Assembly (NCBI RefSeq): GCF_002001165.1
Contig: NZ_MUNQ01000008.1
Coordinates: 186,001-250,000, forward strand
Source of the DNA: Rhodanobacter sp. C05
Lineage (GTDB): Bacteria; Pseudomonadota; Gammaproteobacteria; Xanthomonadales; Rhodanobacteraceae
Direction of reading: 5' to 3'
DNA length: 64,000 bases
Shown here: piece after piece, positions 12,663 through 55,560 of the stretch
Layout of the letters: each line of letters begins with the position of its first letter
How positions within the stretch are numbered: the stretch's first letter is position 1
Program-made: the position numbers and the translations under genes
The notes under the pieces: generated by a model
What the model was told of the DNA's origin: nothing
Databases searched by the model: none
Seen by the model: the letters and a program-made list of their open reading frames with translations, nothing else

Positions 12663-12681
12663 ACTCTCCCCGTTGCCGTGA

Positions 12682-13215: not shown

Positions 13216-13223
13216 AAGGCGTC

Positions 13224-21537: not shown

Positions 21538-21573
21538 ATGTACCACATATGTTTTAATACGAATATGCGCCAC

Positions 21574-23863: not shown

Positions 23864-26800
23864 ATGTGGATAGTCAAAATCGCGCTGGATCGGCCGCTAA
23901 CGTTCATCGTTCTGGCGCTGCTGCTGCTGATACTCGGACCGCTCGCGATTCTGAATACACCGACCGACATTTTTCCGAACATCAACATCCCGGTCGTCTC
24001 GGTGGTATGGCAGTACACCGGTCTGCCCGCGGAGGACATGAACAACCGCATCGTGACCGGTTTCGAGCGCTCGATCACCACGACGGTCAACGATGTCGAG
24101 CATACCGAGACGCAGTCATTGAACGGCGTCGGTCTGGTCAAGGTGTTCTTCCAGCCGAACGTCAACATCGACATGGCGGTCGCGCAGATCACCTCGATTT
24201 CGCAAACTGTGCTGAGATCGATGCCGGCAGGCACAACGCCGCCGCTGGTGATCGTCTACAACGCATCCAGCGTGCCGATCCTGCAGTTTGCGCTGTCGTC
24301 GAAGGACTTGTCCGAAGCGACCATCTTCGACGATGCCAACCAGATCGTGCGCACCTTCGTCACCAGTGTGCGCGGCGCCGCCACGCCCTACCCCTATGGC
24401 GGCAAGCAGCGGCAGATCGAGGTCGATCTGAACCCGCAGGCGTTGCTGGCTCACGGCATGTCGCCGAATGACGTGGTCACGGCCATCGGCCAGCAGAACC
24501 TGATCCTGCCGGCGGGTACGGAAAAGATCGGGGACATCGAATACAGCGTGAAGTTGAACGGCAGTCCGCAACAGATCGCCGACCTCAACAATGCGCCGAT
24601 CCGAACCGTCAACGGCGTCACGACGTATATCCGCGATGTCGCACTGGTGCATGACGGCTCACCACCGCAGACCAATATCGTGCGCGTGGACGGCCAGCGT
24701 GCCGTGCTGATGTCGATCCTGAAGATCGGCAATGCCTCCACCCTGGACATTGTCGACAGCCTGCGCGGGATGCTGCCGAAAATTCGTGAGGCGATACCGA
24801 CGAACCTGAAGGTCCAGGCATTGTCCGATCAGTCACTGTTCGTACGTGCGGCCATTTCAGGCGTGATCCGCGAAGGCGTCATCGCGGCGGCCCTCACCGG
24901 CTTGATGATCCTGCTGTTCCTGGGATCGTGGCGCTCGACGCTGATCATCGCGATCTCGATCCCGCTGTCGATCCTGGCTTCGATCATTGCGCTTTCCGCG
25001 CTGGGCGAAACGATCAACATCATGACCCTGGGTGGCCTCGCGTTGGCGGTGGGCATCCTGGTCGACGATGCCACGGTAACCATCGAGAACATCAACTCGC
25101 ATCTGGAGCAAGGCAAGGACGTCTACGAAGCGATCATGGAAGGCGCACATCAGATCGCGATTCCGGCGCTGGTTTCCACCTTGTCGATCTGCATCGTGTT
25201 CGTGCCGATCTTCTTCCTTGGCGGTGTCGCCAAGTATCTGTTCGCACCATTGGCCGAGGCCGTCGTATTCGCGATGCTGGCGTCATACGTGCTGTCGCGA
25301 ACACTGGTGCCGACACTTTCGCTGTATTGGCTGAAAAAGCATGCACACGGGGACCAGGCCCCCAAAGGGCCGCTTGCACGCTTCCAGGCCGGCTTCGAAC
25401 GGCGCTTCGAGAAGACCCGCGACGGTTATCGTGGCGCCCTCGTGGCCGCCGAAGAACACCGCGGGCTGTTCGCCATTCTCTTCTTCAGCGCGTGTGCGCT
25501 CTCGGTGGCCTTGCTGGTGCCGTGGCTGGGGCGAGATTTTTTCCCGTACGTCGACGGTGGTCAGATCGAACTGCATTTCCGCGCTCAGACCGGCCTGCGC
25601 ATCGAGGAAACCGCACGCCTGGCCGATGGCATCGAGAACACGATTCGCCAGACCATCCCGAAGAAGGAACTGGTCAGCGTCGTCGATACGCTTGGCCTGC
25701 CCTACAGCGGCATCAACCTGTCCTACAGCAACACTGGCGTGGTTGGCACATCCGATGGCGACATCTTCGTCAGCCTGGGCGAAGGTCATCATCCGACCAT
25801 CGATTATGTGCGCACGTTGCGACAGCGTTTGATGCAACGCTATCCCGGTATCATCTTTTCCTTCCTGCCGGCGGACATCGTTGGCCAGATCCTGAACTTT
25901 GGTTCGCCAGCACCGATCGATGTGCAGGTCAGCGGGCGCGATGCGGCGACCACCGCCAAGGTTGCCAACGAGCTCTATGGCAAGCTCCTGCGCGTGCCGG
26001 GGCTGGTCGATCTGCGCCTGCAACAGGCACTCAACCTGCCGCAGATCAACGTCAATGTCGATCGTACCCGCGCCAACCTGGTCGGCCTGACGCAGCAGGA
26101 TGTAGCCGGCAACCTGCTGACGGCGCTCGCTGGTTCCTCGCAGGTCAGCCCGACGTTCTGGGTCGATCCGAAAACCGGTGTGAGCTATTCCATCGCAACC
26201 CAGGCACCGCAGTATCGGCTCGATACCTTGCAGGCATTGAAGACGCTGCCGATTACCAGTGAAGCTGCGGGAGCGGGAGCAGCGGCGGCAACGGCAGCCG
26301 CATCGGGCACCAACAATGGCAGCAGCGGTTTGCCCAGCCAGACCCTGCAGGACGTGGCAAGTTTTTCGCGCAGCGCCGGGCCTGCCATCGTGACCCACTA
26401 CAGCACGCGGCCCACCATGGATCTGTATGCCGCGGTGGACCGTACCGACCTCGGCAGTGTGGCCGCCGACGTGCAGCGCATCGTCGACACGTATTCCAAA
26501 AACTTGCCACGTGGCGTCGAAATCGACGTGCGCGGTCAGGTGAAGACCATGGCCGAGTCTTACCGTGGCCTTATCGGTGGTCTCGCCTTCGCCATCGTGC
26601 TGGTCTATCTGCTGATCGTGGTCAATTTCCAGAGCTGGGTGGATCCGCTGATCATCATCGCGGCCTTGCCCGCCGCGCTGGCCGGACTGGTCTGGATGCT
26701 GTTCCTGACGGGTACACCGTTGTCGGTGCCTGCGCTGATGGGCGCGATCATGTGCATGGGCGTTGCCACCGCCAACTCGATCCTGGTGATCAGTTTCGCG

Positions 26801-27079
26801 CGCGAGCAGCTCGATCAGCACGGCGATCCGGTCAAGGCAGCGATCGAGGCCGGCTTTGCGCGTTTCCGCCCGGTGCTGATGACCGCCTTTGCGATGATCA
26901 TCGGCATGGTGCCAATGGCGTTGGGAATGGGTGAAGGCGGCGAGCAGAATGCGCCACTCGGCCGTGCCGTGATCGGCGGCCTGTTGCTGGCGACCGCGGC
27001 CACACTGTTCTTCGTACCCACCTTCTTCAGTCTGTTGCATCGGCGTCGCCAGGCGCGCCTCAATGCCGCCGCCGCTTGA
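23864..27079 (+). CDS. RND efflux pump permease (HAE1/AcrB family)
   Basis: The 1071-residue protein is a full-length RND inner-membrane permease: a first helix at about 10-30, a large periplasmic loop, six helices at about 335-535, a second periplasmic loop and five more helices at about 855-1060. The proton-relay acids of TM4 are present in GILVDDATVTIEN (D401, D402). RND permeases work as trimers and drive drug or metabolite export with proton influx. One oddity is an alanine/glycine/serine-rich linker in the second periplasmic part (around residues 803-825). The adaptor gene follows with a start close to this stop. The pump abuts the biosynthetic cluster and may serve it, which is inference. 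No regulator gene is adjacent. Confidence 0.92.
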   Translation: MWIVKIALDRPLTFIVLALLLLILGPLAILNTPTDIFPNINIPVVSVVWQYTGLPAEDMNNRIVTGFERSITTTVNDVEHTETQSLNGVGLVKVFFQPNVNIDMAVAQITSISQTVLRSMPAGTTPPLVIVYNASSVPILQFALSSKDLSEATIFDDANQIVRTFVTSVRGAATPYPYGGKQRQIEVDLNPQALLAHGMSPNDVVTAIGQQNLILPAGTEKIGDIEYSVKLNGSPQQIADLNNAPIRTVNGVTTYIRDVALVHDGSPPQTNIVRVDGQRAVLMSILKIGNASTLDIVDSLRGMLPKIREAIPTNLKVQALSDQSLFVRAAISGVIREGVIAAALTGLMILLFLGSWRSTLIIAISIPLSILASIIALSALGETINIMTLGGLALAVGILVDDATVTIENINSHLEQGKDVYEAIMEGAHQIAIPALVSTLSICIVFVPIFFLGGVAKYLFAPLAEAVVFAMLASYVLSRTLVPTLSLYWLKKHAHGDQAPKGPLARFQAGFERRFEKTRDGYRGALVAAEEHRGLFAILFFSACALSVALLVPWLGRDFFPYVDGGQIELHFRAQTGLRIEETARLADGIENTIRQTIPKKELVSVVDTLGLPYSGINLSYSNTGVVGTSDGDIFVSLGEGHHPTIDYVRTLRQRLMQRYPGIIFSFLPADIVGQILNFGSPAPIDVQVSGRDAATTAKVANELYGKLLRVPGLVDLRLQQALNLPQINVNVDRTRANLVGLTQQDVAGNLLTALAGSSQVSPTFWVDPKTGVSYSIATQAPQYRLDTLQALKTLPITSEAAGAGAAAATAAASGTNNGSSGLPSQTLQDVASFSRSAGPAIVTHYSTRPTMDLYAAVDRTDLGSVAADVQRIVDTYSKNLPRGVEIDVRGQVKTMAESYRGLIGGLAFAIVLVYLLIVVNFQSWVDPLIIIAALPAALAGLVWMLFLTGTPLSVPALMGAIMCMGVATANSILVISFAREQLDQHGDPVKAAIEAGFARFRPVLMTAFAMIIGMVPMALGMGEGGEQNAPLGRAVIGGLLLATAATLFFVPTFFSLLHRRRQARLNAAAA

Positions 27080-27089
27080 GATACTGATC

Positions 27090-28256
27090 ATGACCAGCCC
27101 AAATGCCCCTTCCCCGCAGCGTTCGTCCAAGCCGTCACATCGCGTACGACTCGTGCTGATCGTGCTCGGTGTCGTGCTGATCGTGCTTGCTGCACTCGGC
27201 ATCCTCAAGCGTGTTCACGCGCGTCAGGTATTGAGCGAGGACACCGATCGCAACGCCATTCCGACAGTGTCGACACTGACACCGCAGGCTGCGCCAGAGA
27301 ATCAGTTCATGACGCTGCCCGGCACGGTCAAGTCCTGGCAGGATGCTGAGATCTACGCACGCACGACGGGGTACGTGAAGAAGTGGTACGTGGATATCGG
27401 TGCACGGGTGAAACAAGGCCAGCGTCTCGCCGATCTCGACACGCCTGATGTGGACAACGAGCTTTTGCAGGGTCAGGCGCAAATGCGTACCGACCAGGCG
27501 AATGAGAAGCTGGCCAAGGTCACCGCCGATCGCTACGAAGCGCTGGTCAAACAGGGCCTGGTAGCAATGCAGACAGGTGACCAGTACGTCGCCCAGTTGA
27601 ATGCCGACATCGCGACGGTGGAAGCGGACCGCGCCAATGTGGCCAAGCTTCAGAACATGGAGGAGTTCAAGTACATCAACGCACCATTCGATGGCGTGAT
27701 CACCCAGCGCAATCTGGACGTGGGCGCGCTGGTCGATGCCGGTTCCACCGGCAGCAACCTGTTCGTGATCGCCGACACCACCCGGCTACGCGTGTTCATC
27801 GATGTGCCGGAAGGTTATGCGAACAGCGTACGCATCGGCACGCCGGTGACCGTGACCCTCAGCAGCTACGGCACCAAGCCGTTTACCGGCACGATTGCCC
27901 GCACCGCGGACGCGCTTGATTCCAGCACGCGCACCTTGCGCACCGAGATCGACGTGGACAATGCGGGCCAGGCACTGGTCCCTGGCGTATACGCCGACGT
28001 CAAGCTGGCGCTTTCAACCCCGACACAGAATTTCATCGTACCGGCCAATACCCTGCTGTTCCGGAGCGAGGGCCTGCGTATCGCGTTGGTTGATGCGCAG
28101 AAGCACGTCCATCTGCAGCCAATCACGCTGGGCCGCGACTTCGGCAACACGATCGAGGTGACCGAAGGCCTCGATTCAGGTATGCGCATCATCCTGAATC
28201 CGGCCGATTCGCTGTACGAAGGCGAGCGGGTAGACATCGCCACGCATGACAAGTAA
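27090..28256 (+). CDS. RND periplasmic adaptor (membrane-fusion protein)
   Basis: The 388-residue adaptor has a positively charged N-terminus followed by one membrane anchor (RLVLIVLGVVLIVLAALGIL, about residues 22-41). Then come a barrel-sandwich (lipoyl-like) half with YARTTGYVKKWYVDIGARVK, an alpha-helical hairpin around 135-190, the second sandwich half FDGVITQRNLDVGALVDAG and a beta-barrel region. It links the permease to an outer-membrane channel. The ATG at 27090 is preferred because it gives a normal anchor; an ATG at 27063 overlaps the end of the permease gene. No TolC-type gene follows, so the pump must borrow an outer-membrane factor encoded elsewhere. Confidence 0.9.
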   Translation: MTSPNAPSPQRSSKPSHRVRLVLIVLGVVLIVLAALGILKRVHARQVLSEDTDRNAIPTVSTLTPQAAPENQFMTLPGTVKSWQDAEIYARTTGYVKKWYVDIGARVKQGQRLADLDTPDVDNELLQGQAQMRTDQANEKLAKVTADRYEALVKQGLVAMQTGDQYVAQLNADIATVEADRANVAKLQNMEEFKYINAPFDGVITQRNLDVGALVDAGSTGSNLFVIADTTRLRVFIDVPEGYANSVRIGTPVTVTLSSYGTKPFTGTIARTADALDSSTRTLRTEIDVDNAGQALVPGVYADVKLALSTPTQNFIVPANTLLFRSEGLRIALVDAQKHVHLQPITLGRDFGNTIEVTEGLDSGMRIILNPADSLYEGERVDIATHDK

Positions 28257-28649: not shown

Positions 28650-29075
28650 TCATAGTCCCGCCCAAGCTGGATTCCTGGTCGCCTGGTAACGCTCCAGGCT
28701 AGGTGCCGGGCAATAAACCGTGTCTACGAAAATGTTGCGCTCTGCCCAGAAAACCTCCAGGTCGTAGACACAGAACGAATATTTTTGGGGTTGTTCGACC
28801 CAGCCCTGCTCGCTCAGCACCGAAACCGAATTGAACAATTCATTGTCGTTTCCCCACCAGGCCAGGATCAGGTATGGAAACGATGCGCCCTGATGGAAGA
28901 TGGCGAAATGAGGCGTGGTGTGCCAGTGCAGGTCGCGCACCTGTTTCACTGCCTTGAGACGATCGAGGAAAAACGCCTGGTCAACCGGGAGACCGCTTGC
29001 CGAGATCGTATAAATCTTGCCGCCGTCAGCGTCCTTCCATTCGAGCGGCCCGCGGATGGTTCTAGGTCTGAACAT
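28650..29075 (-). CDS. Unrecognised 141-aa protein, last gene of the biosynthetic operon
   Basis: I do not recognise a family. The protein is small, soluble and rich in aromatic residues (for example HWHTTPHFAIFHQGASFPYL near residues 51-70, followed by AWWGNDNELF), which gives a look of a small beta-rich binding or cyclase-type fold, but this is only an impression. The start has a good ribosome site (GGAGCC before the ATG), 15 bases after the stop of the KASIII-like gene, so it belongs to the same transcript. It could be a tailoring or immunity protein of the pathway. Several histidines are present, yet no established metal motif. Confidence 0.45.
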   Translation of the reverse strand: MFRPRTIRGPLEWKDADGGKIYTISASGLPVDQAFFLDRLKAVKQVRDLHWHTTPHFAIFHQGASFPYLILAWWGNDNELFNSVSVLSEQGWVEQPQKYSFCVYDLEVFWAERNIFVDTVYCPAPSLERYQATRNPAWAGL

Positions 29076-29090
29076 GTCGGCTCCTTGAGC

Positions 29091-30032
29091 TCAGCCCTGC
29101 ACGGCTGCACCGGTTCGCTCTACCAACATCGAGGCGAGCAACCCCATGGCGAACGCTTGCAGCAAATAGCGGTCTCCCGGTTGTCCTGCTGGCTTGCGGT
29201 TGTAATGGTCGAGATTGATCAAGGCATCTGCGGAAAGGCAATGGCCCAGATCCAGCAACGTGTCTGCGTGCAGCAGCTGTGTGGAAAATCCTGCCGCAGT
29301 GGCGTTGTAGGTGGCAAGCGGCCAGAAAAAATTGGTGGAAAATACCTTCGCCACTCCAGCGAGCGGCATGCCTGCATCGGAAAGCGCGGCTACGGTCACC
29401 TTGTTGATCAGGGCCTGGCGCTGGTCGAGATTGTCCTCGCCATGCATCCCCTGCACGTTGCCATATTGCGCAAAGCCGAGCACCCTGAAGTCCAGCGGAT
29501 CAATCGAGGATATCAGGCATGCCACCGCTGCATCGCTGATGACGCCGAAGGATTGTATGCGATGCGCATCCGCGCCGGCCTGGTCGTAGGATGCCACCAG
29601 TATTCGTCGACCAAGACCGCTGCGAATATGCATGCACGCGGTGTGGATCGCCGACAATAACCCCGTGCACTCCTGCGCAACGATCGCCATCGGTACCGCG
29701 CGAAGCAAGCCATGGCGCTTGAGCAAGTCGGGTACCAGCCTGCGGTCCGCAAGAAATCCTGCGGAGGCCGAAGTCAGGATGAACATGTCAATGTCCGAGG
29801 CTTCCACACCGGTGTCTTCCAGGCAGCGCTCGATCACGCGCGAGATGACCGTGCCGGGCGCAAGCGTACTTTCGCGAAAATGCCGGTATCGCAACAAGGC
29901 ACTGTTCATGGGAAGTTTGAGCGCCGCAAATTGTTCGCGCGCTCCGGCGATGGCTTCCACTTCGCGGATCGTGTCGCCTAGCTCGACGGTCAGGCCGCCC
30001 AGGCCGAAGCTGGCACCCTGCTCCTCACGCTG
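29091..30032 (-). CDS. KASIII-like (beta-ketoacyl-ACP synthase III family) protein
   Basis: The 313-residue protein has the thiolase-fold pattern of KASIII enzymes: helix VISRVIERCLEDTGVEASDI, strand DMFILTSASAG and an active-site-like loop VAQECTGLLSAIHTA with C123. In FabH the triad is completed by His (in PHQAN) and Asn (in HGNTSAA). The aligned segments here read VFSTNFFW and LGHCLSA, so neither residue is at its usual place. That points to acyl transfer rather than normal condensation, as in several biosynthetic KASIII relatives. The ATG at 30032 overlaps the stop of the GNAT/diiron gene by 8 bases. The open frame reaches further upstream but is out of phase with that gene and not coding. 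Confidence 0.75.
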   Translation of the reverse strand, partial: QREEQGASFGLGGLTVELGDTIREVEAIAGAREQFAALKLPMNSALLRYRHFRESTLAPGTVISRVIERCLEDTGVEASDIDMFILTSASAGFLADRRLVPDLLKRHGLLRAVPMAIVAQECTGLLSAIHTACMHIRSGLGRRILVASYDQAGADAHRIQSFGVISDAAVACLISSIDPLDFRVLGFAQYGNVQGMHGEDNLDQRQALINKVTVAALSDAGMPLAGVAKVFSTNFFWPLATYNATAAGFSTQLLHADTLLDLGHCLSADALINLDHYNRKPAGQPGDRYLLQAFAMGLLASMLVERTGAAVQG

Positions 30033-31272
30033 CATAGGCTTGAGCCATTCCTTCGTACATGCCATAGAACAGATCGCAGGTTTTGCGAACCGCCTCCAGG
30101 GCTTCCTGCTGCATGGACGCCGTGGTGCAGATGTCGGCGACCAGGCTGATGCCCTCGGCGACATGACCGATATCTTCTTTCTGGTGCACCGAGAAAAATT
30201 GCAAGTCGGTCTCCGTAAGGCTGTAGATGCGCGGCAGCAGTTCATGGCGGGCCTCGCCGGCTGCGGTTTCCAAATTCTGCCCTTCACTGGCAATCATCAC
30301 GGCGGCAGCGCCCATGTGAAACGTGTGCCGATTGCGCACGAGGTCCATACGGTAATCGATCAGCGCCTTGGTCGACGGAAGCGGTATGGCGGCATCGCGA
30401 TCGGCGTCGCCGACGCCTATGGCCCTGATGAAATTCTCCATCAAGTTCACATGGTTGTCGGTCCTGGAAAAGCGCCCGGTCTCTTCTTCGTACATATTGA
30501 GAAGCAGGCGTTTCTTGTGTATGCCGCGCGGACAATGATGATAAAGCGTTTCGATGTATTCGAGAAAATGCTTGGTCAATTGATAGCCTTGCAAGGTAAC
30601 CCTGCGCAGCAGCTCCCATTGCGGCGTGCCATTCAAGATTTTCTTGACGATGGGATGGGTCAAGGTAATGCGCGACTCCAGTTCGTCCCTGAGTTTCTTC
30701 TTGAATTCATCGGCCGAAAGCAACGCCGGCGACGATGCGCTCAGGCGGGCACGCAAGGAAGCACTGGATTGCTGCATGTACACGCCGGGATGCGCAATGC
30801 CGTCCACCCGCGCGTAATCGACCAGGCGGCCATATTCGGTAAAGCCCAGGCCCTGCCAAAGCTGATGCGGCCGGGAGTTTTCCCTTACGTCCAGCGTGAT
30901 CAGGCTGTAGCCATGCGCATCGCAATAGTCGCATATGTTCAGAAAGGCGCCCCTGACCAGGCCGCGCTTCTGATAATCGGAACGAATGATGCCCTTGGAA
31001 AGGTTGGCAATATGTCGGCAGTTGGGCATCTCGCTCGACGCCAGGAGAGCCATGCCAATGAAGTCGTCTCCATCGCGGATCACGAACAAGGCCAAGCCGC
31101 CCCGACGCAGCGAATCCTCGAGATCGGCGACTAGCGCCTGCCCTTCGTCGTCGTTCAAGGCCTGCCGATAACCGATTACATCGGTATGCTGGATGGCATC
31201 GTTGTACAAGGCGACAATCCCAGCGCCAGTGCTCGGATCGATCGATGTCGGCCAAAAGAATTGCACGCTCAC
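30025..31272 (-). CDS. GNAT acyltransferase fused to haem-oxygenase-like diiron domain
   Basis: The 415-residue protein combines two domains. Residues 1-160 form a GNAT N-acyltransferase (strand LALFVIRDGDDFIGMALLAS, then acyl-CoA loop region SDYQKRGLVRGAFLNICDYC and helix GYSLITLDVRENSRPHQLW). Residues about 190-415 form a haem-oxygenase-like domain of the diiron oxidase/oxygenase type, with candidate ligands E262-E264, H274, E330 and the H-x3-D-x2-H triplet H363/D367/H370 in HQKEDIGH. Such HDO enzymes perform N-oxygenation, C-C cleavage or desaturation on amino acids and fatty acids. The start is the GTG at 31272, which overlaps the stop of the amidohydrolase gene in a GTGA; upstream open frame is out of phase with that gene. 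The fusion suggests both steps act on one intermediate. Confidence 0.78.
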   Translation of the reverse strand: MSVQFFWPTSIDPSTGAGIVALYNDAIQHTDVIGYRQALNDDEGQALVADLEDSLRRGGLALFVIRDGDDFIGMALLASSEMPNCRHIANLSKGIIRSDYQKRGLVRGAFLNICDYCDAHGYSLITLDVRENSRPHQLWQGLGFTEYGRLVDYARVDGIAHPGVYMQQSSASLRARLSASSPALLSADEFKKKLRDELESRITLTHPIVKKILNGTPQWELLRRVTLQGYQLTKHFLEYIETLYHHCPRGIHKKRLLLNMYEEETGRFSRTDNHVNLMENFIRAIGVGDADRDAAIPLPSTKALIDYRMDLVRNRHTFHMGAAAVMIASEGQNLETAAGEARHELLPRIYSLTETDLQFFSVHQKEDIGHVAEGISLVADICTTASMQQEALEAVRKTCDLFYGMYEGMAQAYAA

Positions 31273-32261
31273 GGTTTTTCTCCTTCGAGTTCGAACATCG
31301 GACCGATGCCGCTCGCTTGGGTGGCAACGGATGGGCTGGGCAACAGCTTGCCGATCGTGCCGGCCATGATGGCCGCAACGGTCGAATCGGCGAGACTGCG
31401 CATGGGCCCGGTTTCTTCGAGCAAGCCGCTCACCATGGCGGCAAGGTCGTCCTTCATGGAAAAAACGGGCCAGTCGGTACCAAAGATGATCTTGTGGTTG
31501 ATGCCCTGGGAAAAAAGGTCGGCAAGATGCTGCTGCCAGCCCGACGCCGACATGGCGGCGGGAAAGCCTGAGATGTCCAGATACACATTGGCCCGGTAGT
31601 TGCACATCAATTTCGCCTGTTCCACGAAATTGACGCCACCGTGCGCCAGAATGAAGTTCACGCCGGGAAAGTGTTTCGCTGCGGCGTCGATCAGATAAGG
31701 ATCTGCGTAACTAAAGTCCAGGGTGGGCGTAGTGGGTCCGGTATGCAGCAGCACGGGAAGCTGGCGCGCTGCGCAGAATTCGTACAACGGGAACATGCGT
31801 TCGTCGCTGGGCGAAAACCCGCAAGGCGGATAAACCTTGAGCCCCTCGAAGCCATGGCGATCGACGACCCGCTCGAACAGGTCATAGCCGGATCTGCCCC
31901 AGCGCGGGTCCACACCGAAGAAAACATGGAAGCGGCCCGGGTGGCGCGCACGGACGGCGGCGTGTTGGGCAGCCATGTCTTCCAGGCTGTACTGCGATTT
32001 GAAGACATGCGTGAAATCCGGCGCAAGCAGGACGGTGCGAGCGATGCCCGCTTCGTCCATCTTGCGGACCAGCCGGTCGGCATCATGGTCATGATACTGA
32101 AGCTCCAGCACCCTGCCCAGCTTTTCCGCTTCGCCGGAACGTTCGCGCGCGAACTGCTTTCTGGCCATGTTGCGCGCCACACCGACGAAAAATTCGCTAG
32201 GTATGCAGCGTGAAGATGCCAAATGGCAATGTCCATCGACGATCAGGGGCGGACGACGCAT
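31269..32261 (-). CDS. Amidohydrolase-family (amidohydrolase 2) metallohydrolase
   Basis: The 330-residue protein is a TIM-barrel amidohydrolase with the metal ligands in order: H11 and H13 in DGHCHL, a His in LLHTGPTTP, a His in ILAHGGVNFVEQ and the catalytic Asp in IIFGTDWPVFS near residue 275. Members of the amidohydrolase 2 group act as hydrolases or decarboxylases on cyclic or carboxylated substrates. The gene starts 3 bases after the ACP stop and ends in a 4-base overlap with the GNAT/diiron gene. In this context it may decarboxylate or ring-open an intermediate of the special building block. The precise reaction is not readable from sequence. Confidence 0.8.
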   Translation of the reverse strand: MRRPPLIVDGHCHLASSRCIPSEFFVGVARNMARKQFARERSGEAEKLGRVLELQYHDHDADRLVRKMDEAGIARTVLLAPDFTHVFKSQYSLEDMAAQHAAVRARHPGRFHVFFGVDPRWGRSGYDLFERVVDRHGFEGLKVYPPCGFSPSDERMFPLYEFCAARQLPVLLHTGPTTPTLDFSYADPYLIDAAAKHFPGVNFILAHGGVNFVEQAKLMCNYRANVYLDISGFPAAMSASGWQQHLADLFSQGINHKIIFGTDWPVFSMKDDLAAMVSGLLEETGPMRSLADSTVAAIMAGTIGKLLPSPSVATQASGIGPMFELEGEKP

Positions 32262-32264
32262 GCG

Positions 32265-32537
32265 TCAATGTCCTGCGGTCAGGCTGGCGACAAAGCGAGC
32301 CGTATCGCCCACCGTTTGCAGTTCGACCAATTGGGTCATGTGCCGTTCCAGGCTGACGCCGCACTCCTGCTCCAGCAGGCTCAGCAGCATCAGCCGGTTG
32401 ATCGACTGCATGCCAAGGTCTTCAGTGAAGCGGGTCTGCGCAGCGATCACCGCGACCGGCGGTTCATCGCCCATGGCGAGTCGGATAAGGCCGGCCAGTT
32501 TTTCCACGTCCGCGTTTTCGTCAATGATCGCGCTCAT
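32265..32537 (-). CDS. Free-standing acyl carrier protein
   Basis: The 90-residue protein has the acyl/peptidyl carrier fold with the phosphopantetheine attachment site in EDLGMQSINRLML, where S45 is the modified serine. It begins in an ATGA overlap with the AMP-ligase gene and precedes the amidohydrolase gene by 3 bases. The obvious partner is the AMP ligase just upstream, which would load its substrate onto this carrier. The bound intermediate could then be worked on by the neighbouring oxygenase, NAS-like and diiron enzymes before transfer to the assembly line. The pairing is inferred from overlap and family habit. Confidence 0.88.
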   Translation of the reverse strand: MSAIIDENADVEKLAGLIRLAMGDEPPVAVIAAQTRFTEDLGMQSINRLMLLSLLEQECGVSLERHMTQLVELQTVGDTARFVASLTAGH

Positions 32538-34030
32538 GCTTGGGTCACCTCGATTTGCTGCTGGAAGTATCGGTAGACGCCCTTTCGGTCGTATTTGAGG
32601 TTCCGCGTCAGCATGCCGTTGTCGATACTTGGAATCGTGCTGGTGATGACCTTGCGCGATATGTGCATGTAGCTGGGTATCGACTGGTTGAGCGCGCGGA
32701 TATCTTCATCGGCGATGCCAGATGCCTGCGACGCGTCGGCTTCATCCGTGACCAGTACCGCTACCACTTCCTGGCCACGCTGGGACTGCAGGACGATCGC
32801 GTGTCGCACCCCGTTCAACGAGGTCAGCTTCCGCTCCAGTTCCTCCGGATGGAACTTCGCTCCGCCGCTGGTCAGGATGATTTCCTTTTTGCGCCCCTTC
32901 AGATACAGGAAGCCGTCGTCGTCGAGGGCGCCGATGTCGCCGGTGGCGATCGTGCCATCGGCAAGAAAGGTCTGTGCGCCATCGCTGCCAGTACTGTCGA
33001 AATATCCTTGGGTAAGCGGAAATGGGCGACGTATCACCACTTCCGATTCCTCGTTGAAATGGACGTGTTCGGGGTGAATCGGACGCCCTACCGAACCGAT
33101 GCGCTGGGTGGCCGGAGTATTCCAGGCGATCATGCCGGTCTCGGTGACGCCGTAGGCCTCCAGCAGCGGAAAGCCAAGTTCGTTATAGGCGCGCAGCAAC
33201 TCGTGGCGGATAGGCGCCATGCCGGTAATCATGAAGCGGATGTTTCCGCCGAGAAACGCGCCCAGCTTCTGTGCGGCTTGCTGCCCTCGTCCATGCACGT
33301 GATAGATGTTTTCGTAGATGGCCGGCGGCGCCACGATGAAACTCGGCTTGAACGCACCCAATTCCTGAAAAACCGAGGTGTGCCGCACCACACGGATCGA
33401 AGCTCCGGCCCACAGGCAGCCATAGACGGAAAGTCGCTGCTGGTAATTGGAAAGCGGAAGGAAGATGAGGTGGCTGTCGGCCGGGTCAAGCGCAAAAGCC
33501 GCAATGAAGTCGCTGACCAACGCCTCGGTGCCGCGGCGGCTGATGTTGAGCCCCTTCAGGTAGCCCGAGCTCCCTGACGAATAGACCCTGGTGTGCAGAT
33601 CCTGGTCTTCCAGCCGCCCCGCTGCCGGGTCGATGGCAAGCGGATGATCGGTGCAGGTGTCGGCCAGGTCGACGCGATACGGATGCCCAGGCAATGCCTG
33701 CCTGTTTTCGCATACCCATAAGGCCGCGTCATGCTGTTGTACCAGGGCGGCAAGCTTTTCCGGGGGCAGTTCTTCGGGCACGGTGTGAATGACGGCACCC
33801 AGCTTGATGGCTGCCAGGTCCCATAGCAGGTATTCGTAACCATTGCCGGCTTGCAGCCCGATCTGCATGCCGGGTCGAATGCCCGCTTGGGTGAGCTTGG
33901 CAGCAAGCGCCTCGACGTCGTCCAGTAATGCCGGTACCGATACCTGATGATCGCTGCCATCCATGCGTCTGGCAGAAAGCGTGTTCGAGGCATGGCCACG
34001 GGCTCGTTCCAGTAAGGCGGCGAAGTTCAT
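32534..34030 (-). CDS. Acyl/amino-acid AMP ligase (ANL superfamily)
   Basis: The 498-residue protein carries the adenylation core motifs: the P-loop-like RVYSSGSSGYLKGLNISRRG near residue 150, LLEAYGVTETGMIAWN, and ATGDIGALDDDGFLYLKGRK with the catalytic region EIILTSGGAKFHPEELE. The C-terminal lysine region reads LTRNLKYDRKGVY. Such enzymes activate a carboxylic acid as the adenylate and load a carrier protein. The ATG at 34030 is chosen because it lies two bases after the stop of the NAS-like gene; the frame continues upstream but would overlap that gene entirely. Substrate specificity cannot be predicted safely. The ACP gene overlaps its end. Confidence 0.85.
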   Translation of the reverse strand: MNFAALLERARGHASNTLSARRMDGSDHQVSVPALLDDVEALAAKLTQAGIRPGMQIGLQAGNGYEYLLWDLAAIKLGAVIHTVPEELPPEKLAALVQQHDAALWVCENRQALPGHPYRVDLADTCTDHPLAIDPAAGRLEDQDLHTRVYSSGSSGYLKGLNISRRGTEALVSDFIAAFALDPADSHLIFLPLSNYQQRLSVYGCLWAGASIRVVRHTSVFQELGAFKPSFIVAPPAIYENIYHVHGRGQQAAQKLGAFLGGNIRFMITGMAPIRHELLRAYNELGFPLLEAYGVTETGMIAWNTPATQRIGSVGRPIHPEHVHFNEESEVVIRRPFPLTQGYFDSTGSDGAQTFLADGTIATGDIGALDDDGFLYLKGRKKEIILTSGGAKFHPEELERKLTSLNGVRHAIVLQSQRGQEVVAVLVTDEADASQASGIADEDIRALNQSIPSYMHISRKVITSTIPSIDNGMLTRNLKYDRKGVYRYFQQQIEVTQA

Positions 34031-34032
34031 CG

Positions 34033-34923
34033 TTAACCAATCCTGTTGAGCAGTAGCGAGGAGATGGTGTCGTCCGCGGTGCCGGAAATGACCCGGGCAT
34101 CGCTGATGGTGAATTTGTGCAGTATGTCCGGGGAGATGTGGGTAGGCTCGTATAGCACGCTGCGCAACCCCGAAGATGTACGGCAAATCACTTCGCAATC
34201 GGGTTTGGCCGAGGCGTGGATGTTGTCGAGGATCAATTTTTTCGGCTTCGCCAACAAGGCAATGATGATCACGTCGTAGGCGCTGACGTCGTAATGGGGA
34301 GAATCTCCATGGATGACGTTGATCACCCCTTTCAGATCAAGCTTGGCGATCAGGCCTCGCGAACGTTCCACCGCGTCCATGGAAAGATCCAGCCCGTCGA
34401 CGGCAATGCCCAGGTACCGGTGCAGCCACATCGCGCTGATCGGAAAAGGACCGGATCCGATGAACAATGCGCGCCGATGCGTTCGATGGCGCAACATTGA
34501 AATTTCCCTCTTCAGAAGGCGCTGGAAACGATTGTTGAGGCGGTAATCGTTCAGTGAGCTGGTTCCTGCGCACAACCGTTCGACAAAGATCTGTTCCAGT
34601 GCCGTTTCCCAGGCACAGTAGGCGTTGTTCAGCAATTCCACCTCATCGCGACCATAGCCTAGTCCGAACAGCAGCTGGTCCACGTCGTTGGCGAGAAAAA
34701 CCTTGGATTCCAGATACTCGACCAGTGGATCCAGCAGGTGGAAGTGATCCCGTGCATCGCTTACCAGTATCGGGTATTCGCGAAGGACCTGGACCGCCTT
34801 GCCCACACTCTCGTGAAACGATGAAGTGCAACGAACCAGCGCATCGATCATCTTTTCGACATCTCGAATCGAACCGACACGCTCGTCCAGGTCATCTTTC
34901 ATTTTCAGCAGGTCTAAATGCAT
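34033..34923 (-). CDS. Nicotianamine-synthase-like aminocarboxypropyl transferase
   Basis: The 296-residue protein has a helical N-terminal domain and a Rossmann SAM-binding domain beginning RRALFIGSGPFPISAMWLHR near residue 153. The signatures FIGSGP, SAYDVIIIALLAKPKK and CRTSSGLRSVLYEP line up with nicotianamine synthases of plants, archaea and fungi and with the bacterial metallophore enzyme CntL. These transfer the aminobutyrate arm of SAM, and nicotianamine formation ends in an azetidine ring. In an NRPS cluster such an enzyme could make a diamino acid or azetidine-2-carboxylate unit, or a metal-binding arm; this is inference. The ATG at 34923 follows AAGGAGGGAG at ideal distance; an ATG ten codons earlier lacks such a site. 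Confidence 0.75.
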   Translation of the reverse strand: MHLDLLKMKDDLDERVGSIRDVEKMIDALVRCTSSFHESVGKAVQVLREYPILVSDARDHFHLLDPLVEYLESKVFLANDVDQLLFGLGYGRDEVELLNNAYCAWETALEQIFVERLCAGTSSLNDYRLNNRFQRLLKREISMLRHRTHRRALFIGSGPFPISAMWLHRYLGIAVDGLDLSMDAVERSRGLIAKLDLKGVINVIHGDSPHYDVSAYDVIIIALLAKPKKLILDNIHASAKPDCEVICRTSSGLRSVLYEPTHISPDILHKFTISDARVISGTADDTISSLLLNRIG

Positions 34924-35027
34924 AACTCCCTCCTTTTCAGCGCATAAAGGCATGCGGTGATGTCATTGCGCGAACGATTGATTGAGTAGGTGAACAACGT
35001 GTCCTTTCTTGTTCGTCGATGCGTATT

Positions 35028-35852
35028 TCACGATACGGAATTCCTGTATGAGGGGTTGCCGAAACTTTGGTGAATGACATCGGCGACGGCATAGAAGTCG
35101 ATGCTGCTGCCATGGCGCAGGCTCGCATAGGGTGGCGCCCGGAAACACGGATTCTGGAAATACATGATCGACAGCCTTGGCTCGATCGCTTCGTCACAGG
35201 AAACCGCGTGCAAGACGCTGCGGATTTCATTGTCGGTGGCCAGTTCCAGGAGCTTGCCGGCCATGACGAAGATTTCATCGGGAGCGAAGTTGATATGTTG
35301 CAGCCGCTGGTGATCGCCCACCATCAGGCCCTGATCGGTTTGCGCGATAAAGGTCAACAGCTGGCTGTCGACATGTGGATCCATGCGGTATTCGCGCTGG
35401 CGTTCCGCGGCCGAGTATTCGAGGTTATAACGGCAAACCTGGATATAGGAATCGTCGCCTGGGGCCTTGGGCGCCGTACCGCCCAGCCGCGCGAAGACCG
35501 CATCGAGCACGACGTTGGAGAGCGCAGCCGCGGCCTGCTCGTAGGCGACGATCGCGCGGTAAAAAGACGTCGAAGCCGTGGGATATCTGGCGTGCAGCGC
35601 GCGGTACTTCTGAAAATAACAGAAGCGTTCGCATAAATCGGGGTGGCCGGGATTGTTCGCCGCATACTCCGAGCCGAAAGGAAGAAATCCGTCCAACTGC
35701 TCCGGAAAACAGAACTGCTGCTTTTCGTCCTCGGAAATTTCCGCGAGCCCGGCGGGGATAAGCCGGAAAGCTTCGCGTAACGTCGGCGGCATCGAAAATA
35801 CGGCGTAGCCATTCTCAAGAAGGCCATCCACAACCCGGCTAATCTCGTTCAT
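35028..35852 (-). CDS. 2-oxoglutarate/Fe(II)-dependent oxygenase (IPNS-like)
   Basis: The 274-residue protein belongs to the isopenicillin-N-synthase-like superfamily. The iron triad is H160-x-D162 in DPHVDSQLLTF and H215 in SVLHAVS, and the co-substrate-binding R226-x-S228 lies in EPRLSIMYFQNP. Typical reactions are hydroxylation, desaturation or ring closure of amino acids or carrier-bound acids. It starts at the ATG at 35852 with AAAGGAG directly upstream, and the NAS-like gene begins about 100 bases downstream. It follows the terminal NRPS gene after a 250-base gap, so it may have its own promoter. It is the first of the eight small genes that I read as the building-block pathway. Confidence 0.85.
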   Translation of the reverse strand: MNEISRVVDGLLENGYAVFSMPPTLREAFRLIPAGLAEISEDEKQQFCFPEQLDGFLPFGSEYAANNPGHPDLCERFCYFQKYRALHARYPTASTSFYRAIVAYEQAAAALSNVVLDAVFARLGGTAPKAPGDDSYIQVCRYNLEYSAAERQREYRMDPHVDSQLLTFIAQTDQGLMVGDHQRLQHINFAPDEIFVMAGKLLELATDNEIRSVLHAVSCDEAIEPRLSIMYFQNPCFRAPPYASLRHGSSIDFYAVADVIHQSFGNPSYRNSVS

Positions 35853-35916
35853 GACGCTCCTTTATCGTGAATACCCTGCATGTTTGCGATGCTTCCGATG
35901 ACGTCGACGGGAGTGT

Positions 35917-36087: not shown

Positions 36088-36105
36088 CGGAGTTAGCTGT
36101 GCGCT

Positions 36106-39100
36106 TCATGACACGACCTGACCGGCAGGTTGCCGCAACGGCTGCTGCTCATGGGTGGGTAAGCCCGGCAGGTCCTGACGCATTCGTTGTGCAATTGCCT
36201 GGGTACATGCCCCCTTCATAATCGTGTAGTGATTGGCCGCCAGCGCGATGCATTCCAGCAAACCATGGGTGCGACGACTCCATTCATCGCGAAGGTGATC
36301 GGCGTACGCCCCTTCCGCCGCGATGAACAGCACGGCCATCTGCTCGGCGGACGGCACGCTGTAGGTTTCCATCGCATAGAGATTACGGTCATAGGTAGCA
36401 AGGAGCTTTGCCGTTTCTTGCCGGCGTGTTGCCTCGGCCACCAGGTCGAGCCTGACCAGCAGGTTTTCCAGCGCATCCAGGCCGCCTTGCAGGTCACGCG
36501 GATCCAGGACCACGCCATCGTCCTGGCCGAGTACGTCCTCGCGCACGTGGGAAATGACTCGTCGCATCCGCTGCGCACTGGTCGCCGGGGGAGACGGCTG
36601 TGGCGGGTGCGTGTCGATCATGACCAATTGCGACACAAGTTCGCCTTGCGCGCGTAGTTGCGCAGCCATTTCCCACGCAAGCAGACCGCCGAAGGACCAT
36701 CCTGCCAAGCGATACGGCCCGGCGGGTTGAACCTGGCGCAGCCGTTTCAGGTAATGCTCGGCAAGTTCGGTCATGCCGAGCATGTCGTCTTCTTCGTCGA
36801 AATCCGATTCCAGCGCGTAGACACTCGCCTGCGGTTCCAGCAGGCGCGCCAGTTCGGCGTAGCAGAACGCGGTGCCGCCGATAGGATGCAGGAAGAAAAC
36901 CGGCTGGCGTTCGCTCTCCTTGGTCAGGGCTACGACGCCTTCCACACCGCTCGCTTGCGGTGACTCGTCGTGCTCGCCACGTGAAGCGGCGGCAATCCAG
37001 GCAGCGATCGATGCCGGCGTCGACAACGTAAAAATGTTTTGCAGTCGAAAATCTGCCGATGCAAGCTGGCTGATGCGTCGTACTAATTGCACCGCCAGCA
37101 GCGAGTGACCGCCAAGTTCGAAGAAGTTGTCGTTGCGGCCCACGCGCTCCACGCCGAGGAGCTCTTGCCAGAGCCGGACCAGGGTGGTCTCGACCTCGCC
37201 CTGCGGCGGCTCGTATTCACGGCGAGCGAAGGCACTGTCGTCGGGCGCCGGCAGCGCTCTTTGATCGAGCTTGCCATTGGGAGTGAGCGGCAGAGCGTCC
37301 AGCCTTACGAAGGCCACCGGCACCATGTAATCGGGAAGGTGCACGCTCAAATAGCTGCGCAGTGCAGCGGCCAACGCATCGGCTTCCGCATCATCCTTCC
37401 GAGTTGGGACGATGTAGGCGACCAGCCGCTTGTCGCCGGGGACGTCCTCACGTGCAAGCACGACGGTCTCGCGCACGGCGGGGTGTTCGGTCAGGCGCGA
37501 TTCGATTTCGCCCAGCTCGATGCGGAAGCCGCGAATCTTGACCTGTTGATCATTGCGGCCGAGGAAGACGAGATTGCCGTCAGGCAGATAACGGGCCAGA
37601 TCACCGGTGCGATACATCCGTGAATCGGGGTGCGGACTGAACGGGTCGGTGAGGAAGCGCTCGGCGGTCAGCTCGGGCCGGTTGAGATAGCCACGCGCCA
37701 CGCCCGCGCCGCCAACGTAGAGCTCGCCTATGGCGCCGCGTGGCACCAGCTGCCCGCACGCGTCCAGCAAATAAATCCGCGTATTGGCGAGAGGACGGCC
37801 GATGGGCACGATCTCGTTGCCGGGTACTTTTGCGCTGACTACGTAGGTAGTACAGCCGATGGTGGTCTCGGTGGGGCCGTATTCGTTGATCAACTGAACA
37901 TGCGGATAGCGTTCCTGCCAGAACGCGAGGTCACCCGGTACCAGCGCTTCGCCGCCCAGGATCAGGCTGCGCGCGGGCGCACTGGCATTCGAGGCATCCA
38001 AGACGGGATTGAGTATCTTCAAATGGGCGGGCGTCAGCTTGAGCAATTCGAATGCGCCTCCGACCGCCGCAGCGGAAACATCGGGCTTGCCCAGCGCCAT
38101 CAGTTCATTTTCAACCGGCAACAAGATCAGTGGCTGACCGGCGATGAGCGGTCCAAAGAAGATCGTCACACTGCCATCGAAGGCAAAGGACAACGAGGCG
38201 GGCGATCCGTTGCCGCCGGGCCGGTAATACGTCGCCTGTGTCGCCGTGAAATAGTTGACGAGATTGCGATGCTCGACCATGACGCCCTTGGGCGTGCCGG
38301 TCGAACCGGAGGTATAAATCACATAGGCCAGATGCTCGGAGGCAAGGCCCAGCTCGCGTGGATCTGGATCGGCATCGGCATGCACGATCCACGGCGCGTG
38401 CTCGCTCGCGAGGTCAAGTACCGTCAGCGAGGCAAGCGCCTCCTCACCGAGGGCATCACGCCCAATGGCGTCGCTGAGCAAGATCGCCGGGCCCGCATCG
38501 GCGAGGATCTGGGTGAGGCGTGTGCAGGGATAGGCCGGATCGAGCGGTACATAGGCACCGCCTGCCTTGAGGGTGGCCAGCAGACCGACCACCATGGCCG
38601 GGCTCCGCTCCAGGCAGATCGCGACGCGATCGTCCGGGCGCACGCCTTGCTCGATCAGGTAATGCGCCAGACGGTTGGCCTCGGCATTGAGCCGGGCGTA
38701 ACTGAGCGACTGCTCCTCGAAACGCAGGGCGATCGCATCGGGGGTGCGTTCGACCTGCTGCTCGAACAGCCGATGGATGCACAAATGGGCCGGATACGGC
38801 GCATCGGTATCATTCCAGGTCTTGAGCAGCAGGTTGCGTTCGGCAGCGGGCAGCATGTCCAGCTGGCTGATTGCCTGTGTCGGGTCGCGCACCATCGCCT
38901 GCAGCACGCGCCGCAGATAGACCGCCACGCGTTCGACGGTGCTGTGCTCAAACAAGGCCGTGGCGTATTCGAGACCGCCTTCGATCGTAGATCCCTGTTC
39001 TTCCAGCATCAGCGTCAAATCGAATTTTGATTTGCGCCGATGAGGTATGTCCAAGTCACGGTTCGCAATACCGTGCAACATCGATTCGCCGCTACCGCTG

Positions 39101-51856: not shown

Positions 51857-51936
51857 GACTCTCCCCAAGACACCATCAGGCAATCCACCAAATCTCCATT
51901 TGCATTGCGCTGGATGCGGTCCGCACCCAACTCGGC

Positions 51937-54900: not shown

Positions 54901-55560
54901 CAGTTCTCTGCCGAGCAACTTCTTGGACCAGTCGTCGCTCACGATATGGTGGATGCTCAACAACCACATATACCGCTTCTGCTCCAGCTTGATCACACCC
55001 AGACGAAGCAAAGGTCCATGTGCCAGGTCGAAGGGTCGACGCCCTTCCTCAGCGGCCAGGCGACGCGCCTCGGTATCGCGCTGCGATACGGGCATGCCGC
55101 TCAGATCGGTGAAGGCCAGGGGAAATTCGTAAGGCGCCGCAATGTGCTGAACCGGCACACCCTCAACCGACGGAAAGCTAGTGCGCAACAATTCATGCCT
55201 GCGCACCAGTTCGGTCGCCGCTCGGCGCAGCGCGGGCACGTCGATCTCACGCACAAGCACGTCCGCATCGCAAACGTTGTAGGCGGGCACACCGGGCTGG
55301 AACTGGTCGAGAAACCATAGTCGTTGCTGCGCGAAGGTCAGCGGGATCGGTGCATCCCGCGCAACCCGCTCGATGCGTGGCTCGCCCACCGCCTGACGTT
55401 GACGCAACAGTCCGACGATTTCCGGCTTGCGCTGCGCGAGCTCGGCTTTCAGCTCGTCGGTAAAGCCCTCGCTGGGTGCGCGGAAGCGTAGCTTGTCGCC
55501 ATCTAGCGACAACTGGATGCCGAGCTCTTGCAACCGGTTGAGAAACTGCACGGTATTCAT
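51937..55560 (-). CDS. Monomodular NRPS with N-terminal docking domain ([dock]-C-A-T)
   Basis: The 1207-residue protein starts MNTVQFLNRLQELGIQLSLD, a TubC-type N-terminal docking domain (about 1-50), then C (about 80-510; motif HHIVSDDW with Asp in place of the usual Gly), A (about 540-1050; FDASLEES, YGPTESTIA) and T (FFDLGGHSLLATR near 1110). The pocket reads D-A-E-V-V-G-T-I-A-K, which I cannot assign. The ATG at 55560 overlaps the PKS stop by one base (TGATG), fixing the start; upstream open frame lies inside the PKS gene. The docking domain should bind the C-terminus of the PKS, so this C domain would accept the polyketide chain. The protein ends in a carrier domain without release function. 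Confidence 0.92.
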   Translation of the reverse strand: MNTVQFLNRLQELGIQLSLDGDKLRFRAPSEGFTDELKAELAQRKPEIVGLLRQRQAVGEPRIERVARDAPIPLTFAQQRLWFLDQFQPGVPAYNVCDADVLVREIDVPALRRAATELVRRHELLRTSFPSVEGVPVQHIAAPYEFPLAFTDLSGMPVSQRDTEARRLAAEEGRRPFDLAHGPLLRLGVIKLEQKRYMWLLSIHHIVSDDWSKKLLGRELEVLYDAFANGRPSPLPELAIQWADFSIWQHKWLSGQNLQSHVDYWKQVLGGELPTLNLPVDHPRKQPVRGEKGKFFFPPALTRALHGLCEAEGVTLFMAALAGYACLLAHYSRQDDIIIGSPISDRSKVETESLIGFMLNTLPLRVHVDRQATFRELLRQVKETCLGAYNFQAVPYESLMQQLSVERDSTGNPLFRSVLTLLNTPRVERAAEGLWGRDEAAADISGFQGEFGPYEADFGNGTAMFDFSITLTEKHGGIWGKIEYNADIFNQASVASLVERFQLLLRSAAQDPTRKIGDLSLQTPTQRAELLQHWSRGPELSWEVQHLHQFIERQARLRPDAIAIEHDGNVISYGQLNAKANGLARHLGVCGVKPEARVGVYFERSIDLFVSIMAVLKAGAGYVPLDVTYPLERIAFILEDAKVELVLTTSALAGNLSASKHAQVAVDSEAADIAAHAQTNLPPLGAADGVACILYTSGSTGRPKGAALTHSAQINYAEDSANAYGVDASERVLQFSSIAFDASLEESYLAFSRGGTLVLRGERMLDSIDGFVAHCRSMRLSTLVLPTVYWHELIASLDPLALPPDLRCVVIGGERALPEKIVQWQEKVAGRIALFNTYGPTESTIAVTRYQVPPSPLPELAGAEVLIGKPIANTTVYVLDPWLQPVPYGVPGEVFIGGMALAHGYVGKPALTAEKFVPDPFSDTPGARLYRTGDLARFLPDGNLQYRGRADDQVKIRGYRVELREVELLLQEYEAVEDVVVVAREDEPGERRLVAYVVPRAGASLNAIMLRAFLKPKAPSYMIPAAFVLLPVLPLNANGKVNQRVLPKPDAGANASGADGERIAPRTPLEQQLCDIWMKVLQLQEIGVNDNFFDLGGHSLLATRVVAYVNAQLHIDLPLRRLFEAPTVMELAPVVEELAHTSHVEWDRPISLRTLIGGSPDAQQHDTGAAQGNANDADIEHMLSGLEQLTDSEIEALLDAEGEHGSE

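Follow-up and report, generated by a model that had tools for sequence, protein, structure and literature searches.

A candidate portable building-block pathway with a nicotianamine synthase-like enzyme beside a PKS/NRPS assembly line in Rhodanobacter

Introduction

What does a row of small biosynthetic genes supply to the giant assembly line next to which it lies, and which of these genes belong together? The question is raised by a stretch of 64,000 nucleotides from the 4.25-Mb genome of Rhodanobacter sp. C05 (positions 186001-250000 of its contig, hereafter the window), in which eight minus-strand genes lie behind polyketide synthase (PKS) and nonribosomal peptide synthetase (NRPS) genes. 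An earlier note on this DNA had read them, in order, as encoding a 2-oxoglutarate (2OG)-Fe(II) oxygenase, a nicotianamine synthase (NAS)-like enzyme, an AMP-forming acid ligase, a free acyl carrier protein (ACP), an amidohydrolase, a fusion of a GNAT domain with a haem-oxygenase-like dimetal oxidase (HDO), a KASIII-like acyltransferase and an unknown protein of 141 amino acids (aa), and both open reading frames (ORFs) and Pfam and NCBIfam profiles agree with this order. The conserved unit consists of six of the eight genes, from the NAS-like enzyme through the KASIII-like protein. We propose, at a probability of about 0.5, that they form a portable cassette by which an amino acid derived from S-adenosylmethionine (SAM) is made and undergoes oxidation by the HDO and capping by the GNAT before it is loaded onto the ACP, trimmed and passed to the assembly line.

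Conservation of the gene set

The co-occurrence of the NAS-like and GNAT-HDO proteins, which the earlier note had put forward as a check, is found in Rhodanobacteraceae, where the NAS protein is encoded in 3 of 233 genomes (the window genome and two designated G224 and G1098) and the fusion in the identical three, representing 3 of 26 genera. Eleven further GNAT-HDO matches in the family are weak (E 3.5e-9 or worse), each covering only part of the protein. G224 carries an unbroken block of seven genes, from NAS to the 141-aa protein, that is colinear with the window and shows 76% nucleotide identity across 6.3 kb, with protein identities of 80% (NAS), 81% (ligase), 69% (ACP), 82% (amidohydrolase), 81% (GNAT-HDO), 75% (KASIII) and 71% (141-aa protein). 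The corresponding values for G1098 are 57% for NAS, 65% for the ligase, 56% for the ACP, 72% for the amidohydrolase, 69% for GNAT-HDO and 49% for KASIII. Because the six core genes share one contig in two other genera, their recurrence is more than chance.

The view that all eight genes form one unit is not upheld. The 2OG oxygenase had no match in G224, G1098 or the more distant genome G719 (a search run without its own positive control), on which ground it is excluded from the core and regarded as window-specific among the genomes compared, and the 141-aa protein was not found near the G1098 cassette. The junctions, computed after gene starts had been re-placed, lead to a similar division. 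The NAS gene, whose start at M11 (34923) is preceded by AAGGAGG, is separated from the ligase by 2 bp; the ligase and ACP genes overlap by 4 bp; 3 bp lie between ACP and amidohydrolase; the amidohydrolase gene overlaps GNAT-HDO (GTG start at 31272) by 4 bp, and the latter overlaps KASIII by 11 bp; the 141-aa gene follows after 15 bp. With gaps of 2-15 bp or overlaps of 4-11 bp throughout, the tight unit extends from NAS to the 141-aa protein, for which the short spacing described earlier holds, whereas the 2OG gene stands slightly apart, 253 bp from the NRPS gene and 104 bp from NAS. An 86-aa ORF at 35849-36109, between the NRPS and 2OG genes, was dropped as a gene since it looks non-coding (GC by codon position 0.68/0.62/0.52).

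Outside the family, the set becomes sparse. NAS searches, with the window genome included, matched 2 of 299 genomes in the order and 3 of 398 in the phylum. The other two in the phylum, G364 and G368, have relatives of only 27-28% identity, and neither yielded an HDO relative. A scan of genome contigs with the NAS alignment returned a single locus, in G719 (a scan that may omit records close to the window), and a tblastn search of plasmids with NAS gave no match. Among 274 genomes of the class, GNAT-HDO was matched in 20, strongly only in the window genome and G719, and each of the four genomes with a close NAS (window, G224, G1098 and G719) also encodes an HDO. The distant NAS relative in G364 (L033:10445-11464; 28%, just below the Pfam cut-off) lies within an apparent fatty-acid/aryl-polyene-type gene group. 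As for the combination itself, for which the earlier note knew of no precedent, no characterized or otherwise described cluster with this gene set was found in the open-licence literature.

Assembly lines beside the conserved genes

If the cassette is portable, it should accompany assembly lines of different kinds, and this is what the comparison of the window with its two relatives in the family indicates. Over stretches longer than 300 aa, the window NRPSs are 30-44% identical to those of G224 and G1098 (26% in one stretch), except for one adenylation-thiolation (A-T) didomain, which is 46% identical to G1098 and 44% to G224, other G224 stretches reaching at most 40%. This didomain opens the NRPS at 46709-51883, where it has no condensation (C) domain; in G1098 its counterpart belongs to the gene adjoining NAS, and in G224 it precedes NAS by about 8.6 kb. 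G224 and G1098, by comparison, have NRPS modules in common (57% over 1042 aa, 55% over 1086 aa and 48% over 1144 aa), as well as two kinds of A-domain code, the codes being read by motif. Judged by sequence, therefore, the window backbone is different from those of G224 and G1098, which resemble each other in part, and the earlier suggestion of a portable building-block pathway, in the sense of conserved genes beside differing assembly lines, gains support from the window set against each of these two genomes.

The NAS-like enzyme

The first of the six proteins was earlier assigned as a SAM aminocarboxypropyl transferase, and modelling and alignment lend this assignment support: the predicted structure (pLDDT 79.8) has the NAS fold, and the catalytic Glu is retained. 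A three-row NAS profile matched, among PDB sequences, the structurally solved MtNAS (1.4e-28) and CntL (1.6e-9), and a fold search returned Z scores of 24.4 to MtNAS (3fpg; 255 residues aligned, rmsd 3.4) and 20.2 to CntL, with methyltransferases at 16.1 and below. According to excerpts of PMC10491745, Glu81 and Tyr107 of MtNAS deprotonate the attacking amine. The Glu (MtNAS Glu81; CntL Glu84) corresponds to E120 in ORF numbering and is invariant in four proteins. The likeness to MtNAS and CntL thus covers the fold across the whole core, the SAM-binding half and the catalytic Glu; the window enzyme differs from them in having Phe in place of Tyr107 and in its setting beside a PKS/NRPS with ligase and ACP genes.

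Two alternative roles bear directly on this enzyme. One is that it cyclizes SAM to azetidine-2-carboxylate (AZE), with the GNAT capping or detoxifying AZE, as yeast Mpr1 does, and the HDO modifying the ring before loading. A GNAT relative is indeed present in all four genomes with a close NAS (about 63 kb away in G1098), plant NAS itself closes an azetidine ring (PMC10491745, in part), and AZE synthase genes of clusters II-IV often lie near N-acetyltransferases (PMC11794875, in part). AzeJ and VioH, which likewise are SAM-using, methyltransferase-like enzymes that feed NRPS building blocks and often neighbour N-acetyltransferases, nevertheless match the window enzyme neither in the PDB sequence searches nor among the 50 fold matches listed, and the AzeJ signature motifs PFNxxGN and RxxYYxxC, as given in excerpts of PMC11794875, are absent from it. 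The nearest folds are those of amine-acceptor enzymes, and no Pro-like A-domain code was recognized, all of which makes AZE formation unlikely. The other role is that of an accessory metallophore arm, in which the enzyme would, as for staphylopine, extend an amino acid by an aminobutyrate arm that serves in metal binding. MtNAS and CntL being the nearest solved folds, this deserves consideration; however, no opine dehydrogenase occurs among the window proteins scanned, the linked ACP, ligase and KASIII genes indicate assembly-line use, and the neighbouring pump is an RND protein of the AcrB family, so that a metallophore role is quite improbable.

The GNAT-HDO fusion and its separate counterparts

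On a single chain, the fusion matches Haem_oxygenas_2 at 76.7 bits and two GNAT models at 24.0 and 23.6 bits (Pfam). The HDO superfamily has a ligand set of three His and three carboxylates, as described in excerpts of PMC13108848. In the window protein, with positions assigned by spacing and by alignment to CADD, the set reads E262, H272, E328, H361, D365 and H368 (alignment-row numbering, +2 from the GTG start) and is invariant in five proteins. The nearest solved HDO sequences are the 4-aminobenzoate synthases 9pj4 (E 1.8e-21) and 1rcw (E 2.2e-9).

A CADD-type, self-sacrificing 4-aminobenzoate synthase is not supported by the residues. In CADD, the sacrificed residue is Tyr27 and the donor Lys is Lys152. 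Tyr27 is replaced by Val in the window and occurs in no row of the alignment, and Lys152 corresponds to Ala or Glu in the window, depending on the alignment, the latter column reading Glu, Glu, Glu, Lys (G719) and Gln in the five rows. The window HDO therefore has these solved proteins as its closest relatives by sequence, but lacks those two residues and, moreover, is fused to a GNAT. The nearest solved GNAT is the tabtoxin-resistance protein.

In G719, a genome of the same class, the HDO (55%), NAS (46%) and GNAT (35%) are encoded by three adjacent separate genes, so that the window fusion joins parts that stand apart there. The longest ORF listed in the 20 kb read around this trio is 843 aa, too short for a PKS/NRPS of the usual size. 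At 1.5 kb upstream of the trio there is a same-strand gene for a full-length AMP ligase, beyond an ORF that runs the opposite way. Since the trio stands together with no ACP relative in the 20 kb, the HDO may act before loading, a suggestion softened by the nearby ligase. Accordingly, the trio context tilts the balance somewhat towards an HDO and a GNAT that act ahead of loading, contrary to the earlier idea of two iron enzymes modifying a carrier-bound substrate. G719 has a second HDO (L036:1627-2349; 56% to that of the window) elsewhere in its genome, near apparent ABC-transporter parts, and no NAS relative was found in the stretch read around it.

The carrier set and its relation to azaserine and triacsin biosynthesis

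The remaining four proteins resemble parts of known carrier-bound pathways. The putative KASIII-like acyltransferase, as the earlier note had termed it, has a Cys-His-Asp triad (C123, H265 and D270; C122, H264 and D269 in the alignment row) that is invariant in seven proteins. Its profile matches ChlB3 and CerJ at E 2.9e-7 and 2.1e-7, plain FabH proteins scoring higher; the likeness lies in the triad, with Asp five residues past His as in ChlB3 (Cys113-His296-Asp301 in excerpts of PMC9573744), whereas overall identity is low. A KASIII profile search of 249 genomes matched 224 and was swamped by FabH, and its counts were not used. The amidohydrolase metal-site motifs (HxH, His and Asp) are kept in four proteins, including a 47% identical one from Nonomuraea gerenzanensis.

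In a ligase tree of 16 rows, some with long branches and three other acyl ligases placed outside, the proteins of the window, G224, G1098, Massilia and Nonomuraea group together (100/97), and this clade is joined (95/92) as sister to a clade of six ligases from azaserine-like clusters (100/100), leaving the window ligase outside the latter. Among 17 plasmid records with a KASIII relative, a ligase relative lies no more than 20 kb away in at least 13 (25 of 51 ligase matches listed), several Sinorhizobium and Streptomyces entries being near-copies. In Nonomuraea gerenzanensis (L056:16720-24398), the ligase (31%), the amidohydrolase, a PhyH-type 2OG enzyme (97.3 bits), an ACP-like protein (read from an LGISSLN motif; no Pfam match) and a KASIII protein (30%) are encoded in a row. 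This arrangement suggests that ligase, amidohydrolase, ACP and KASIII constitute a reusable adaptor that takes different acid-making enzymes. The Nonomuraea row continues with a BtrH-like protein (below the Pfam cut-off) and an apparent ATP-grasp protein, possibly an undescribed cluster. On a Massilia forsythiae plasmid (L055:7817-18029), the closest ligase outside the family (34%) heads a small NRPS, preceded by genes for a 2OG oxygenase and three hypothetical proteins.

The closest known system of this type is that of azaserine and triacsin (AzsS-P-Q-T-F-D; Tri31-29-30-22-13). There, according to PMC10445470, the precursor is succinylated by a GNAT and then attached to a carrier protein by a ligase; once a hydrolase has taken off the cap, oxidation by a flavoprotein follows, and the acyl group is transferred to a second carrier protein by AzsD, a KASIII-family member. 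The dob pathway resembles this scheme (PMC13061610). GNAT, ligase, carrier, hydrolase, oxidase and KASIII-family transferase are thus common parts, and the window ligase and KASIII-like protein are 29-31% and 24-28% identical to their relatives in clusters of this type. In contrast, the window has a NAS-like SAM enzyme in place of the lysine N-hydroxylase, an HDO and no flavoprotein dehydrogenase in the block, and an Amidohydro_2 hydrolase instead of a C45 peptidase; oxidation, which occurs on the carrier in the known systems, is proposed to precede loading. The cassette works like the azaserine/triacsin set in its carrier part and is not a member of it: its carrier logic is of a known kind, and its entry chemistry appears to be new.

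A true hydrazone or diazo pathway, in which the HDO would perform the N-N or diazo oxidation, might still be considered, given that the ligase and KASIII-like protein are distantly related to proteins of such pathways and that such clusters also contain HDOs. A lysine N-hydroxylase gene was seen near four of the six azaserine-like-cluster ligases, yet PF13434 (Lys_Orn_oxgnase) had no match in the window genome or G224 and only two weak ones, on other contigs, in G1098, in a search that was positive in 12 of 14 control genomes. This absence from the window genome argues against hydrazine or diazo chemistry, as do the position of the ligase outside the azs-like clade, a GNAT not homologous by BLAST and a hydrolase of another family, and we consider such a pathway highly improbable. 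Among the neighbourhoods compared, the S. lavendulae record displays the azs gene order, that of Burkholderia stagnalis has a GNAT and a C45 peptidase, and that of Embleya has a GNAT by Pfam (the record is unannotated). The B. stagnalis locus, on a plasmid (L057:11863-25169), is an unusual azs-like one, with a ligase, a carrier-like hypothetical protein, the GNAT, the C45 peptidase, ketosynthase-like genes, an HDO-family protein, a diiron oxygenase and an acyl-CoA dehydrogenase.

Proposed pathway

The proposed scheme builds on gene sets, co-inheritance, folds and active-site residues, and its order of steps is borrowed from azaserine/triacsin biosynthesis. The NAS-like enzyme would take the 3-amino-3-carboxypropyl group from SAM and either transfer it to an amine or close it upon itself, giving a small amino acid, which the HDO would oxidize and the fused GNAT would cap at its amine. 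The ligase would then adenylate the capped acid and load it onto the free ACP, whereupon the amidohydrolase may remove the cap or trim the carrier-bound acid, and the KASIII-like protein may pass the acyl group to a PKS/NRPS carrier domain or another acceptor. More specifically, and tentatively, at somewhat less than even odds, the cassette may represent an undescribed route that starts with NAS-family chemistry, uses a CADD-like HDO-GNAT to make a new warhead or side chain, and ends in an azaserine-like ligase/ACP/KASIII hand-over, with the trio at its chemical core and the carrier set serving as an adaptor that can be reused.

Several points weigh against the portable cassette. Every reaction, substrate, acceptor and product in it, as well as the order, is what we infer. 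The Phe at the MtNAS Tyr107 position (F143) is found in all four NAS proteins. GNAT motif A, Q/RxxGxG/A, is degenerate in the pyrophosphate loop of all four GNATs (QKRGLV in the window, QKRGIV, QKSGLM and, in G719, RGVSIV; compare RGRGLG in the tabtoxin-resistance protein), so that the GNAT may not use acyl-CoA in the normal way, which speaks against a plain acyl-CoA enzyme. Compared by BLAST with three GNATs from azaserine-like clusters, moreover, this GNAT had no match better than E 0.5, the HDO has a marginal match (E 1e-4) to one azaserine-like cluster protein, from B. stagnalis, and the hydrolase families differ. No NAS, GNAT or HDO relative was found in Nonomuraea gerenzanensis by tblastn, so that the amidohydrolase need not serve a GNAT. 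Within 20 kb of the G719 trio there is no relative of the ACP, amidohydrolase or KASIII, and the ligase found there is of another type, similar to the cassette ligase at only 26% over 216 aa. Finally, scattering of the genes, which the earlier note had named as evidence that would count against it, is not seen in the colinear G224 block, whereas in G1098 about 63 kb, holding NRPS genes, ABC-transporter genes and further long ORFs, separates the NAS gene from the ligase and the rest on the same contig and strand.

Some of these observations could also be accommodated by two pathways in one operon, a NAS/HDO/GNAT unit supplying an NRPS A domain and the ligase, ACP, amidohydrolase and KASIII handling a separate acyl group. 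The G1098 NAS gene adjoins an NRPS gene away from the ligase set, the G719 trio lacks close relatives of that set, and Nonomuraea has the ligase, amidohydrolase and KASIII without the other three. In each of the three family genomes, however, the GNAT-HDO gene is embedded among the ligase-set genes, flanked by those for the amidohydrolase and KASIII, which renders this division distinctly unlikely.

Should the portable cassette hold true, the nicotianamine-synthase family would enter PKS/NRPS precursor supply, HDOs nearest to the self-sacrificing 4-aminobenzoate synthases would gain a likely small-molecule job, and the azaserine/triacsin carrier logic of loading, deprotection and KASIII-family hand-over would extend beyond hydrazine chemistry. 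With three clusters and one minimal trio to draw on, the pathway can be tested stepwise using purified proteins.

Accessory and neighbouring genes

The features of the locus are collected in Table 1.

Table 1. Features of the window; Pfam matches quoted for the eight-gene set are all above curated cut-offs
Feature	Position	Strand	Remarks
2OG-Fe(II) oxygenase	35028..35852	-	PF03171 2OG-FeII_Oxy 42.3 bits; H160-x-D162 ... H215 and RxS motifs
NAS-like SAM-dependent aminocarboxypropyl transferase (predicted)	34033..34923	-	296 aa from M11; ORF opens 34953; PF03059 57.3 bits (curated cut-off 27.1)
AMP-forming acid ligase	32534..34030	-	498 aa; PF00501 AMP-binding 134.3 bits
Free acyl carrier protein	32265..32537	-	90 aa; GMQSI motif with Ser; PF00550 PP-binding 26.2 bits
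Amidohydro_2 family hydrolase	31269..32261	-	330 aa; PF04909 124.3 bits
GNAT-HDO fusion	30025..31272	-	415 aa, GTG start; N-terminal GNAT, C-terminal HDO; PF13673/PF00583 + PF14518
KASIII-like acyltransferase (putative)	29091..30035	-	314 aa; PF08545 ACP_syn_III 26.6, PF08541 ACP_syn_III_C 30.3 bits
141-aa protein, accessory	28650..29075	-	No family match; present in 2/3 clusters
NRPS (C-A-T)x3-TE	36106..46602	-	Domain scan
NRPS A-T-C-A-T	46709..51883	-	Domain scan; first A-T without C domain
NRPS TubC-C-A-T	51937..55809	-	Domain scan
Giant PKS/NRPS ORF	55560..64000, leaves the window, continues to 83963	-	9467 aa; Pfam scan of in-window part only
RND efflux pump	23864-27079	+	ACR_tran 675.6 bits; AcrB family
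Periplasmic adaptor	27063-28256	+	TIGR01730 225.5 bits
Tyrosine recombinase	20458-21573	-	Downstream of cassette, on its strand

No Pfam or NCBIfam profile matches the 141-aa protein at E 0.01, its structure prediction is poor (pLDDT 53.9), and on sequence grounds it is a member of a wider family. One relative is joined with an isochorismatase domain in a single gene on a Yersinia frederiksenii plasmid (L040:13224-14252), and another stands alone among ordinary-looking genes in the genome G527 (L044:14389-14802).

The divergent RND pump and its adaptor (23864..28256) are a possible exporter; neither in G224 nor in G1098 was the pump found in the vicinity of the cassette. A tyrosine recombinase 57% identical to that of the window lies downstream of the G224 cassette, again on the same strand, and the 100 kb of G1098 that were read yielded none; with a recombinase downstream in both the window and G224, the cluster may sit on an integrase-linked island. 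Further along, the window contains a complete Wadjet type I operon, jetABCD, at 4715-11357 (PADLOC: JetA1 572, JetB1 244, JetC1 1187 and JetD1 388 bits), which, together with a WYL protein gene (3793-4626) and DUF3800 and YaaC-like genes (11568-14273), makes up a defence island near the cluster.

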